This document shows, in pieces, positions 845 to 17,893 of a stretch of DNA of 64,000 bases. This DNA is from Halorubrum depositum (GTDB lineage: Archaea > Halobacteriota > Halobacteria > Halobacteriales > Haloferacaceae). The translations under genes and the position numbers were made by a program. The notes under the pieces were generated by a model, which was not told where the DNA came from, did not search any database, and saw nothing but the letters and a program-made list of their open reading frames with translations. The stretch spans positions 186,001-250,000 of the forward strand of contig NZ_VCNM01000001.1 in NCBI RefSeq assembly GCF_007671725.1, given 5' to 3'. The first letter of the stretch is position 1. Each line of letters starts with the position of its first letter.

Positions 845-1358
845 TAGCCGAGTTCGGGCGCGAGCGCACTTAGACCGTTCGGACGCTCCACACGAGCGGG
901 AACGAGACCGAACGAAGAGGACGGGTGTCACGACCGCCCGACTGCGCCGACTTCTTATAAACGAACGGCGCGGTGCCGTGCGGTGGCGCACGCCGTGAGC
1001 GGGCCGAAGGCCCGCGAACGACCGTGCGAGGGACGCGGTGAGCGCTCGAAGAGCGCGAACCGCGAGGCTGGGGTGGTGTGAGGTGCTGTGCGGAGCGGTG
1101 TGGGGTGGGACTCAAAGGGGCAGTCGCGACGACGAAGGCGGCCGAAGTAAGCACCGCAGCGAGTGAGCGGAGCGAACGAGCGAGGAGCGCACCGAGGCCC
1201 CCGAGTCGTCGCGACTGGGGCTTTGGAGGCGGTCACCACGCTGTCAACGAGTGGTTATAAGGAAGTGGCTGGACTCGGCGGCCGTCCGTCGAGCCGTCGC
1301 CAGCGACAGCTTATAAGCAACCGACGACACCGACAGAACCGCGGTCCCGATAAACGTC
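845..1358. other. Intergenic stretch of 514 bases carrying structured element A
   Basis: No credible gene is seen. The short open frames are rich in Arg and Pro in low-complexity frames. A TATA-like TTATAA lies at 955-960, about 25 bases before the start of the structured block (about 980). Two further TTATAA motifs sit after the block, at 1255-1260 and 1310-1315. The block itself is described in its own entry. Confidence 0.6.
980..1260 (+). repeat. Structured repeat element A (candidate non-coding RNA)
   Basis: Two adjacent hairpins have the same plan: outer stem, GA, inner stem, GAA loop, inner stem, GA, outer stem. Hairpin 1 spans 994-1020 (outer CGT/ACG, inner GCGGGCC/GGCCCGC). Hairpin 2 spans 1034-1064 (outer CGCGGT/ACCGCG, inner GCGCTC/GAGCGC). 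They are joined by a linker containing GTGCGAGGGA, and followed by GCGAGGCTGGGG. Further on, 1113-1133 pairs with 1205-1225 as a 21-base arm pair interrupted only by a symmetric GGG/GGG loop. A second copy, with different stem sequences but the same plan, lies at 15201-15336 on the other strand. The strand shown is the one on which the tandem GA pairs form. Confidence 0.7.
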
Positions 1359-14366: not shown

Positions 14367-14518
14367 ACGGCAAGGGTCGGAACCGCCATGGTTGAACGTT
14401 TCCATCTTCCAAACGGAAAACTCGCTGTAAGTTTATTAAGTGGGCGGCGAGCGGGCGCCGAGCGCGACCGCCGCCGCGACCGAAACGGTCGGGTGGCTCC
14501 GGCTCGAACGTGGGGGCG

Positions 14519-15115
14519 ATGGACGACCGAGTCGCGGCGACACTGCGCGAGGACCCGACGATGGCGGCGCTTATCGACCGGCACGGCCCGCTCGCGATCG
14601 ATCCCGCGGACGACGAGTTCGCGCGCCTCTGCACCTCGATCGTGAACCAGCAGCTCTCGACCGCCTCCGCGGCGGCCATCCACGAGCGCTTCGTGGACGT
14701 CCTCGGCGGCGACCCGACCCCGGACCGCGTGCTCGCGGCCGACGAGGCGGCCCTGCGCGAGGCCGGGCTGAGCGGGACGAAGGTCGAGTACCTGCGCGAG
14801 GCCGCCGGCGCGTTCCGCGACGGCGACCGCGACCTGACGCGCGAGGGGCTGGCGGGCGCGAGCGACGAGGCGGTCGTCGACGCGCTCACCGAGATCCGCG
14901 GCGTCGGCGAGTGGACCGCGCGGATGTACCTCATCTTCGCGCTCGGCCGCGAGGACGTGCTGCCGCTCGGCGACCTCGCTGTGCGGAAGGGGATCGAGCG
15001 GGTGTACAACGACGGCGCGGAGCTCTCGCGGGCGGAGATGCGCGAGATCGCCGAGACGTGGCGTCCCTATCGGAGCTACGGGACGCGGTACGTCTGGGCC
15101 GAGTACGAGTCGTGA
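14519..15115 (+). CDS. DNA-3-methyladenine glycosylase, AlkA-like HhH-GPD protein
   Basis: A 198-residue base-excision repair glycosylase lacking the N-terminal domain of E. coli AlkA. It contains the substrate-side motif SIVNQQLST (about 41-49), the helix-hairpin-helix region ALTEIRGVGEWTARMYLIF (about 124-142) and the catalytic Asp in LPLGDLAVRKG. The ATG at 14519 is taken; a GTG three codons upstream is also possible. It is transcribed away from the beta-oxidation gene. The likely job is removing alkylated purines. Confidence 0.9.
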   Translation: MDDRVAATLREDPTMAALIDRHGPLAIDPADDEFARLCTSIVNQQLSTASAAAIHERFVDVLGGDPTPDRVLAADEAALREAGLSGTKVEYLREAAGAFRDGDRDLTREGLAGASDEAVVDALTEIRGVGEWTARMYLIFALGREDVLPLGDLAVRKGIERVYNDGAELSRAEMREIAETWRPYRSYGTRYVWAEYES

Positions 15116-15200
15116 GTGGTTGCGTGCGAATTGGCGGTGAACACCTCTAACGCCCCAGCGGCGTGGGTATAAACGGTCGCCCGAGGATCGGCGGAGAACA

Positions 15201-15336
15201 CTCCCAAAGCCCCGCCCTACACCGCGATCGAACCTCGCGCCTCCCCAGCCTCGCCGCGGCCGCTGACGGCGGCCGCGGGCTCCCTCGCACGCGCTTCTCG
15301 CGCCTCTCGGGCGCTCGAAGGCGCGCGCCACCGCAG
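15201..15336 (-). repeat. Structured repeat element B (second, shorter copy)
   Basis: Read on the minus strand, this block has the same order as element A: hairpin 1 (15294-15320: CTTC, GA, GCGCC, loop, GGCGC, GA, GAAG), then GTGCGAGGGA, then hairpin 2 (arms 15254-15263 and 15269-15278, ten base pairs), then GCGAGGCTGGGG. It ends with GGGGCTTTGGGAG, matching the far end of element A, but the long stem present in A is absent. The stems differ in sequence from A yet pair perfectly. It begins about 30 bases after the stop of the RimK gene, in the same direction. Confidence 0.65.
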
Positions 15337-15366: not shown

Positions 15367-16722
15367 CTACTCCTCTTCTTCGAGGATCTCCCCGGCCTCG
15401 TCGCGCTCCGTCTCGTCGGTGTCGGCGCGCCGCCGGACGTCCACGCGGTAGTCGGTGAGGATGTCGCGGCCGAGGAGGAGCGGGTACTCCATGTGGCCGC
15501 GGTCCTCGACGCTGGCGGTGACGGTGTGCTGGTTCCCGCCGATGCCGATCACGAGGTCGACGACGGGGCGGGCCTTCCCGCCCTTCACGCTCCCCGACTT
15601 GACTCGGGTCATGCTCTTGATCGGGCCGGCGCCGATCTCGGCGGCGAGCTGCGTGTCGATGCTCGTCCGGGTCGCACCCGTGTCGGACTTCGCGAGCGCC
15701 TGCGTGGAGCCGGAGGTGCCGGTGACGACGACCTCCTCGATGTAGCCGATGTCGGGCTGTTCGGCCGTGTTCGGCTTGGGGGCCGGCGCGCAGGTGGGCC
15801 GCGAGTCGTCGAGGGTGGCGGCGATGCGCTCGACGTCGTCGTCGTCCACCTCGCCGTCGACCCGCTCGATCGCGAGCCTCGCGATGTGCGGCGCGGGGCT
15901 GGTGCCCGTCGCCTCGTAGAGTCCCTTGAAGCCGGCCGTCGGGTTCACCTCGAGGACGTACCAGCCGTCGAACCCCTCGACGAGGTCGACGCCGGCGTAG
16001 TCCAGGTCCATCACGTCGGCCGCGTACAGCGCGGTCTCGGCGGCCTCGTCGGGCATGTCGTCGGTCGCGTCCTCGACCGCGCCGCCGAGCGCGACGTTGG
16101 TGCGCCAGTCGCCCTCGGGCGCGTAGCGGTACATCGAGCCGACGATCTCGTCGCCGACGATGTAGACGCGCAGGTCGCGGTGTTTCTCGTCGTCGCGGTC
16201 GATCAGCTTCTGGAGGAACGCCTGCCGGTTGCCGACCTTCGGGTTCACGCGCTCGGTGAGGTCGACCTTCCACGTGCCGCCGCCGTGCGTGCCGATGGCC
16301 GTCTTGTAGACGCCGACCTCGCCGAAGCGCTCGCGCCCCTCGTTGAGCCGGTCGTTCGAGAGCGCGAGCAGCGCGTCGGGCACGCGGATGTTCCAGTCCG
16401 CGAGCGTCGCCGCCGTCGCGAACTTGTGGATCGACGCGAGCACGGCGTTCGGCTCGTTCAGCATCGGTCGGATGCGCTCGAACGTCGCCGCCAGCCCGAG
16501 CAGCTCCGCGGGCTGATCGGTGTTCGAGAGCAGCAGCCGGTTCGCGATGACGTCGACGCTGGGCTCCACCGAGACGTCGCCGTCGTCGACGCTGATCGCG
16601 GCGTTCTCCTCGCGGAGCCAGACGGGCTCGTGGCCGAGGTCCTCGACCGCGTTGCAGATCGCCTTCGTTTCCTTGCTGTTGTGTAACGACAGCACTCCCA
16701 CCCGGACCGTGTCCGAACTCAT
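15367..16722 (-). CDS. RimK-type ATP-grasp glutamate ligase fused to a retropepsin-like (RimB-type) domain
   Basis: A 451-residue fusion. Residues 1-300 form an ATP-grasp ligase of the RimK/LysX type, with GTHGGGTWK (about 144-152), FLQKLI, and metal/nucleotide motif YVLEVNPTAGFKG (about 255-267). Residues 325-440 form a domain like the ATP-dependent zinc-protease/RimB family, with a DTGA motif at 347-350 and LGRDIL near 423, the signatures of a retropepsin-like fold. RimK enzymes add glutamate to protein or small-molecule acceptors. The ATG at 16722 is supported by the ATP-grasp N-terminal domain starting there. It is divergent from an aspartoacylase-family gene. Confidence 0.88.
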   Translation of the reverse strand: MSSDTVRVGVLSLHNSKETKAICNAVEDLGHEPVWLREENAAISVDDGDVSVEPSVDVIANRLLLSNTDQPAELLGLAATFERIRPMLNEPNAVLASIHKFATAATLADWNIRVPDALLALSNDRLNEGRERFGEVGVYKTAIGTHGGGTWKVDLTERVNPKVGNRQAFLQKLIDRDDEKHRDLRVYIVGDEIVGSMYRYAPEGDWRTNVALGGAVEDATDDMPDEAAETALYAADVMDLDYAGVDLVEGFDGWYVLEVNPTAGFKGLYEATGTSPAPHIARLAIERVDGEVDDDDVERIAATLDDSRPTCAPAPKPNTAEQPDIGYIEEVVVTGTSGSTQALAKSDTGATRTSIDTQLAAEIGAGPIKSMTRVKSGSVKGGKARPVVDLVIGIGGNQHTVTASVEDRGHMEYPLLLGRDILTDYRVDVRRRADTDETERDEAGEILEEEE

Positions 16723-16821
16723 GGGCGCACCTGCGCGGGCCCGGGTAAAAGGTCGCCCGATCGGAGAGCGGTCTGACCGTCGACCGGTCGGGGAGGCGAC
16801 GGGTCTCGATCGCCGGGTCGT

Positions 16822-16833
16822 CATATATATACC
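16822..16833 (+). promoter_or_regulatory. TATA-like box in the divergent RimK/aspartoacylase region
   Basis: CATATATATACC stands out in GC-rich DNA about 26-34 bases before the ATG at 16856, matching a leaderless haloarchaeal promoter for the rightward gene. Confidence 0.6.
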
Positions 16834-16855
16834 ACCCCGCCCGCTCCCTCGTGAC

Positions 16856-17893
16856 ATGAGCGACGACCGGGTGTTCACGTACAACGGCGGCGCGGTGCCG
16901 CCGGGCGAGACGCAGAACATCCGCTACGGGATCAGCGAGACGTACCTCGGCGACCCGGTCCGGATCCCCGTGACGATCGTCAACGGCGAGCGCGACGGGC
17001 CGACGGTGTTCCTCACGGCGGCCGCGCACGGCGACGAGCTCAACGGGATCGAGGTGGTCCGCGAGGTCGCCCACGAGTGGGACCTCTCGTCGCTGTGCGG
17101 CACCCTCGTCTGCCTCCCCGTGCTCAACGTCCCCGGATTCATCGCGCAGCAGCGGTACCTCCCCGTCTACGACCGGGACCTCAACCGCTCGTTCCCCGGC
17201 GAGGCGGGCTCGACGAGCTCGAAGCGGATGGCGAACCAGATCTACTCCAACTTCATCGCGCCCTGCGACTTCGGGCTCGACTTCCACACCTCCACCCGGG
17301 GCCGGACCAACATGCTCCACGTCCGCGCGGACATGGCCGACGCCGGCGTCCACCGCCTCGCGATGGCGTTCGGCTCGAAGGTGATCATCGACAGCGACGG
17401 GCCGAGCGGCACCCTCCGCGGCGAGGCGACGGCCGACGGGACCCCGACAATCACGATCGAGATGGGCGAGGCCCACCGCTTCCAGCGCCCGCTCATCGAC
17501 GACGCGCTCGGCGGCGTGCGCTCCGTCTTCGCCGAGTACGGCCTGCTCGAAACGGACACGGTGCGCTGGCCCGGCTGGCGGACCATCGTCGCCGGCGCGG
17601 GCGAGAAGACGTGGCTCCGTGCCGACTCCGGCGGTATCGTCGACACCCACTACGAGAGCGGCTCGCTCGTCCGCGAGGGCGACCGGATCGCGACTATCAC
17701 CAACCCGTTCAAGGAGGACGCGGTCGGCATCGAGGCCCCCTTCACCGGGCTCCTCATCGGCCTTCTCGAAAATCCCGTCGTCTACCCCGGCAACCCCCTC
17801 TGTCACCTCGTCGAGATCGACGAGGCGGTCCGCCGCGCGATCGAGACCGGGGACGCGCCGACGCCGGTTGGGCAGCCGGAGTCGGCGGACTGA
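16856..17893 (+). CDS. Succinylglutamate desuccinylase/aspartoacylase family protein
   Basis: A 345-residue zinc-dependent deacylase of the M14-like AstE/AspA superfamily. The zinc motif is H58-x2-E61 in AAAHGDELNG; DLNRSFPG near 115 and the distal His in DFHTSTRG complete the expected site. The C-terminal third (about 255-330) is a barrel domain common to this family. The ATG at 16856 is supported by a TATA-like box about 30 bases upstream. Together with the divergent RimK fusion it resembles bacterial clusters where RimK, RimB and such a deacylase occur side by side, suggesting release or trimming of an amide-linked acyl group. Confidence 0.88.
   Translation: MSDDRVFTYNGGAVPPGETQNIRYGISETYLGDPVRIPVTIVNGERDGPTVFLTAAAHGDELNGIEVVREVAHEWDLSSLCGTLVCLPVLNVPGFIAQQRYLPVYDRDLNRSFPGEAGSTSSKRMANQIYSNFIAPCDFGLDFHTSTRGRTNMLHVRADMADAGVHRLAMAFGSKVIIDSDGPSGTLRGEATADGTPTITIEMGEAHRFQRPLIDDALGGVRSVFAEYGLLETDTVRWPGWRTIVAGAGEKTWLRADSGGIVDTHYESGSLVREGDRIATITNPFKEDAVGIEAPFTGLLIGLLENPVVYPGNPLCHLVEIDEAVRRAIETGDAPTPVGQPESAD

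Follow-up and report, generated by a model that had tools for sequence, protein, structure and literature searches.

A truncated modular hairpin repeat in Halorubrum depositum, a probable member of a dispersed haloarchaeal repeat family

BOX elements of Streptococcus pneumoniae are modular intergenic repeats with a variable number of subunits. Bacterial REP sequences, BIMEs and REPINs are built from units of 20-40 bp which carry a GTAG or CGTC tag and are often associated with a RAYT transposase (PMC3733652, PMC3116915). Dispersed hairpin repeats are well studied for bacteria but hardly for archaea, and the REP survey that covers archaea has no haloarchaea among its genomes. For Haloquadratum walsbyi, PATEs, MITEs and SMRs have been described as elements with defined ends and strain-specific insertions; PATEs have palindromes near their termini and may contain inserted small repeats, and homogeneous PATEs share over 90% identity (PMC3119063). 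Here we analyse a stretch of 64,000 nucleotides from Halorubrum depositum (the window), which contains two related hairpin elements, A and B. We consider it fairly probable that element B represents a truncated copy from a family of dispersed intergenic repeats in haloarchaea which are modular and structured, and that this family, mosaic in the manner of REP, BIME and BOX repeats, is reshuffled through ectopic gene conversion.

Element B (15201-15336, minus strand) consists of hairpin 1, the linker GAGGGA, hairpin 2 and a G-rich box, and every block named in the preliminary description was located on the minus strand in the order given there. Hairpin 1 (15287..15328) shows covariation in sets of 40 and 158 copies. 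It is composed of a 7-bp outer helix with one G-U pair (15328-15322 / 15293-15287), a bulged C (C15321), CTTC/GAAG (15320-15317 / 15297-15294), the tandem GA/GA step, the inner helix GCGCC/GGCGC (15314-15310 / 15304-15300) and a loop (15309-15305). From the sequence GTGCGAGGGA, which had been described as a linker, only GAGGGA (15281..15286), invariant according to copy comparison and the joined-pattern count given below, is unpaired, while GTGC is the 3'-strand end of the outer helix. Hairpin 2 (15253..15280) is a cassette of the GCCCGCGGCCGCC type with a 10-bp stem (15278-15269 / 15263-15254), and cassette comparison found this type again in other copies and species. The block GCGAGGCTGGGG covers 15254-15243, and the conserved G-rich box GAGGCTGGGGAGGCG, supported by the same two lines of evidence as the linker, covers 15238..15252. 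Comparison with full copies and with loci L042, L044 and L051 identified GGGGCTTTG (15205..15213) as a remnant of the 3' end of a third module, the rest of which is deleted. In the tail (15133..15173, also on the minus strand), a TTTATA block precedes a degenerate unit, GGGGCGTTAGAGGTGTTCACCG, which is present one to three times in other copies.

The upstream neighbour is an ATP-grasp/RimK-like ORF (15367..16920, minus strand), co-directional with element B and with orthologues of high identity in 27 of the 29 genomes of the genus. The downstream neighbour, a base-excision glycosylase-like ORF (14510..15115, plus strand), is convergent with the element and provides a synteny anchor. The RimK-like gene has a C-terminal protease-like stretch and lies head to head with a succinylglutamate desuccinylase/aspartoacylase-like gene (15367-17893).

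Element A (about 985-1224, plus strand) is the fuller copy. Its AT block TTATAA (955..960) lies upstream of hairpin 1, where other copies have an AT octamer. Copy comparison and a covariance model define hairpin 1, GAGGGA (1028-1033), a hairpin 2 that likewise contains a GA/GA step and the box GAGGCTGGGG (together 985..1073). In the third module (1110..1224), ACTCAAAGGGGC ... GGGGCTTT close a long stem which covaries among 117 distinct copies.

A complete copy has about 300 nt. It begins with an AT block (TTTATAA) 14-24 nt 5' of hairpin 1, and of 40 copies, 32 have the AT octamer in this position, whereas none of 40 controls does. Hairpin 1 has 7 bp, a bulged C, 4 bp, the tandem GA/GA step, about 6 bp and a loop, and is followed by GAGGGA. 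Hairpin 2 occurs in two forms, either as a long perfect stem or as two stems separated by GA/GA, and precedes the box GAGGYUGGGGAGGCGUGAGG (core GAGGYUGGGGAGG; GAGGCTGGGGAGG in element B). A GCGGUUGCGGU-rich spacer leads to the third module, made up of GGACUCAAAGGGGC, a long stem that may contain inner hairpins, and GGGGCUUUGGAGG (consensus GGACUSAAAGGGG ... GGGGCUUU), after which there are 0-3 tail units of about 66 nt with another TTTATAA. The conserved blocks of the family are GAGGGA, GAGGYTGGGGAGG and GGACTSAAAGGGG. The third module is entirely or mostly lost not only in element B but also at L042, L044 and L051.

At two loci (L166, L153) the tail units are repeated up to three times and are nearly identical within the locus, which suggests local tandem duplication. 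Arms and loops of several elements (L155, L166, L033, L160, L152 and others) contain smaller, nested double-hairpin inserts such as CGCCGGC..GCCGGCTGCCAGAGGGACC..GGTCCCTCGCTGG or GGTTCGAGAGAGC..GTCATCACGA..TCGAACGACA, the latter with four exact-pattern matches in the genome. A further common block resembling GGAAGTCGCAGCCCGCGCAGCGAA..GCGAGCAGGACTGTCTTCC (L127, L142, L152, L160) is found in Halorubrum and in other genera.

A search of the 3.18-Mb genome for the joined exact pattern GAGGGA-N14..44-GAGG[CT]TGGGG gives 56 matches, while the reversed-pattern control gives none; either block by itself is not a rare sequence once one or two mismatches are allowed. With a covariance model built from 40 copies, 72 copies were detected at a cut-off of E <= 0.001, two of which are located where contigs 2 and 3 abut and could be a single copy. 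The end of contig 2 and the start of contig 3 both have an element with an identical hairpin 2, and thus the repeat has probably broken the assembly, or the contigs overlap. Within the window, the model gave no credible match besides element B (81.8 bits, E 5e-13) and element A (54.9 bits, E 3e-8), and as both belong to its training set their scores are partly so by construction.

In 195 genomes of the order, exact matches to the core number 11 to 158 per Halorubrum genome, up to 100 in Halorussus and a few in each of several other haloarchaeal genera. In a scan of 84,980 species genomes, the matches listed are from Halorubrum contigs (one of them an uncultured archaeon), one Halorussus and one Halobellus. 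The signature of the third module alone was found in 80 of 146 genomes, which belong to 29 of the 56 haloarchaeal genera sampled, while controls gave almost no matches. Its smallest form has 37 nt (GGACTGAAAGGGGCCGGTCGCGCGACCGGGGGCTTTC; L171, about 1500); in this lone module a symmetric GGG/GGG internal loop lies between two helices, where a G-quadruplex contact might conceivably form in molar K+. At four Halorussus loci (L130, L132, L133, L138) two elements are arranged tail to tail, joined via inverted GTAGCTAGC-type sequences. Rfam gave no match for the window at the gathering threshold and no credible match for four element loci down to E 1, the miRNA family names obtained at the inverted repeat of L130 at that level being due to chance. 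A search of the open-access literature, exact motif strings included, found no description of the family. Viral carriage was rejected: the 12 pattern matches in IMG/VR are attributed to chance, because the covariance model gives one weak match (22.9 bits, E 0.025), and phage sequences did not match the element.

When folded alone, element B is unexceptional (z -1.57, with 16 of 200 shuffles equally good), and the support for its fold is comparative; the full copy at L020 folds far better than shuffles (z -5.38). In the alignment of 40 copies, 84.5% of the cells pair, compared to 73.0 +- 0.7 after shuffling, and 14 of 25 pairs have changed on both sides. The covariation score (0.296 versus 0.123 +- 0.009) was reached by none of 500 shuffles, which ignore relatedness among the copies, and the signal is destroyed when the partner is slid by one to three columns. 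Stems that differ and yet pair had been claimed from elements A and B, and this holds for the family: the further copies keep paired stems and a common core, the loss of which would have spoken against it. Among 158 distinct hairpin-1 sequences, 97.5% of the cells pair, compared to 83% with shuffled partners, and one pair occurs as CG, GC, AU, UA, UG and GU. G-U is found 69 times and A-C 12 times, where partner shuffling leads to an expectation of about 126 and 80; the stem of the third module varies similarly (117 distinct copies, G-U 45, A-C 16). This asymmetry points to the element's own G-rich strand as the one that would be folded, although a C-to-T mutation bias of the sense strand could contribute to the G-U excess. 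The GA/GA mismatch of hairpin 1 is kept in 81 of 90 parsed copies; a kink-turn was considered and rejected, since the GA/GA step comes without a 3-nt bulge. Covariation within hairpin types, the excess of G-U over A-C and the retained mismatch together favour selection on one folded strand, which may be RNA or single-stranded DNA.

The difference between elements A and B had been interpreted as compensatory change, but this is not the case. Whole hairpins have often been swapped at orthologous sites, and three of four such replacements examined are identical to other copies in the same genome. Hairpin 2 is represented by 72 distinct, nearly always paired cassettes in 90 copies. Seven species have the element, always in one orientation, in the spacer between the RimK-like and the glycosylase-like gene, with different hairpins in each. 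At seven other loci, for which up to five species were compared, the element is mostly kept while the hairpins differ; it is reversed in the orthologous L020 spacer, as seen in two species, and genome G011 has only a remnant at one compared locus and lacks the element at another (L165). Two close genomes, one from H. ezzemoulense and one from an uncultured Halorubrum, provided 14 measurable orthologous pairs. In 10 of these, core identity is 50-88% and that of the 320-nt flanks 92-99%; in the other 4 the core is conserved as well as the flank or better. At one locus (L327/L324) the core is 100% conserved and the flanks about 92%, which counts against our explanation. Four entirely replaced hairpin-2 cassettes of the second genome were compared with the other copies there; three have an identical counterpart, and the fourth has one that differs by no more than two edits.

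As these sequence comparisons show, hairpins are exchanged as whole cassettes while the fold is kept. Arms thus stay complementary without selection on each base, and as block exchange itself preserves complementarity, the comparison of A and B alone does not prove selection on RNA. Selection on a folded strand, be it RNA or single-stranded DNA, is favoured by the covariation within types, the G-U excess and the kept GA/GA step, but is not demonstrated by the difference between the two elements. Block exchange is most simply explained by ectopic gene conversion. Haloarchaea are polyploid and have efficient gene conversion, which suits such a process.

Non-autonomous transposable elements of the MITE, PATE or REP type, moved in trans, would be many, dispersed, intergenic and patchy among genera, as these copies are, and would be absent from some orthologous spacers, as at L165. 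The inverted pairs in Halorussus and the AT-rich TTTATAA on both borders, which resembles a target preference, would also fit; as a target-site duplication TTTATAA was rejected, being part of the repeated unit and not locus-specific. However, this genome has no recent near-identical copies (the best match is 88% over 103 nt), site and orientation are often common to several species, and in 41 copies with flanks, the borders of which are not exactly defined, neither terminal inverted repeats nor a clear target duplication was seen. The Y1 transposase (PF01797) is absent from four of eight Halorubrum genomes (this genome, G015, G018 and G043), all of them copy-rich (56-102 copies), which led us to reject a RAYT-type REP. 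We consider transposition in trans possible but rather doubtful.

We assign a similarly modest probability to a transcription terminator or mRNA 3'-end element. Neighbouring genes, called with a home-made gene scorer, are convergent for 14, tandem for 21 and divergent for 4 of 39 copies, while the 66 background gene pairs in the window are convergent in 10, tandem in 45 and divergent in 11 cases; the convergent enrichment has p 0.001 against all pairs and p 0.008 if the comparison is with spacers of 60 nt or longer. In agreement with a terminator, 35 of the 39 copies are downstream of at least one gene. However, copies do not keep a fixed orientation downstream of a gene: the tandem spacers split 11:10, and this, together with the reversal at the orthologous L020 spacer, is why we reject a strand-specific 3'-UTR element. 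Third-module copies of Halorussus also occur between divergent genes, and the T-run of the usual archaeal terminator was not noted beside the element. As 14 of 41 copies are preceded by a gene pointing away, read-through from an upstream gene is not the rule. Convergent placement fits a terminator or insulator and equally a repeat that is tolerated where no promoter is harmed. Orientation domains linked to replication were rejected; contig 1 is suggestive (p 0.035), the overall data are not (runs p 0.36), and copies in G018 look mixed.

It is unlikely, in our view, that each copy is a separate transcript of 100-300 nt, a multi-copy structured non-coding RNA with a fold that binds a protein or a partner RNA. 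Covariation as expected for a structured RNA, the G-U bias, the GA/GA motif and the folding of the full copy are in its favour, as is the frequent AT block, which is present with co-directional (22/27) as well as opposite (9/13) upstream genes. However, the AT block is about 19 nt upstream of hairpin 1 and, if a TATA box, would place the start within the outer helix of that hairpin, so that it fails to explain a transcript with the whole fold. Element B and several other copies lack the block, module content varies among copies, and Rfam has no match. Finally, paired arms that arise solely from template-switch repair of imperfect palindromes, without function, might be expected in GC-rich haloarchaeal genomes and would agree with long perfect hairpin-2 stems and cassette exchange, but are decidedly improbable, since such repair would erase the GA/GA mismatch and should not prefer G-U over A-C.

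We thus return to a modular repeat family shuffled by ectopic gene conversion. Copies would exchange hairpins by such conversion or by break repair; the boxes GAGGGA, GAGGYTGGGG, AAAGGGGC and GGGGCTTT would provide the homology, and the hairpins the sites prone to breakage. With less certainty, the G-rich strand may fold when single-stranded. The likeliest setting for this would be read-through RNA at the borders of genes, and converging transcripts could be stopped or insulated in this way; the family may owe part of its persistence to being a selfish or neutral repeat that such spacers tolerate. To act at gene borders as a folded RNA or single strand seems its most likely role. A much more far-reaching idea, to which we give little credence, is an order-wide haloarchaeal system of structured RNA or single-stranded DNA with interchangeable hairpin cassettes, in which fold and boxes would be selected while gene conversion rewrites the stems faster than the neighbouring genes change.

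Paired stem changes between copies can result from block exchange, and in repeat families covariation should therefore be taken only with caution to prove that an RNA is functional. The G-U bias and the conserved GA/GA step offer a direct test of whether the fold matters, and turnover quicker than that of the flanks makes ectopic gene conversion measurable in polyploid archaea.

With the BOX elements of Streptococcus pneumoniae the family shares its modular and intergenic nature; sequence, domain and fold differ, and exchange of hairpin cassettes is dominant in the Halorubrum family. Like the PATEs, MITEs and SMRs of Haloquadratum walsbyi, it is haloarchaeal, free of transposases and dispersed, and small inserts, here hairpins, nest within the element as they do in PATEs; unlike those elements, it is diverse, occupies sites common to several species and has no defined ends (PMC3119063). 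It resembles REP sequences, BIMEs and REPINs in its high-copy intergenic palindromic hairpins, its mosaic clusters and the presumed fold as RNA or single-stranded DNA (PMC3733652, PMC3116915). In contrast to REP and BIME repeats, the Halorubrum unit has about 300 nt and several distinct modules, and a tagged unit of 20-40 bp with GTAG or CGTC is absent. While a member of none of the families tested, it is closest in kind to the REP, BIME and BOX repeats.
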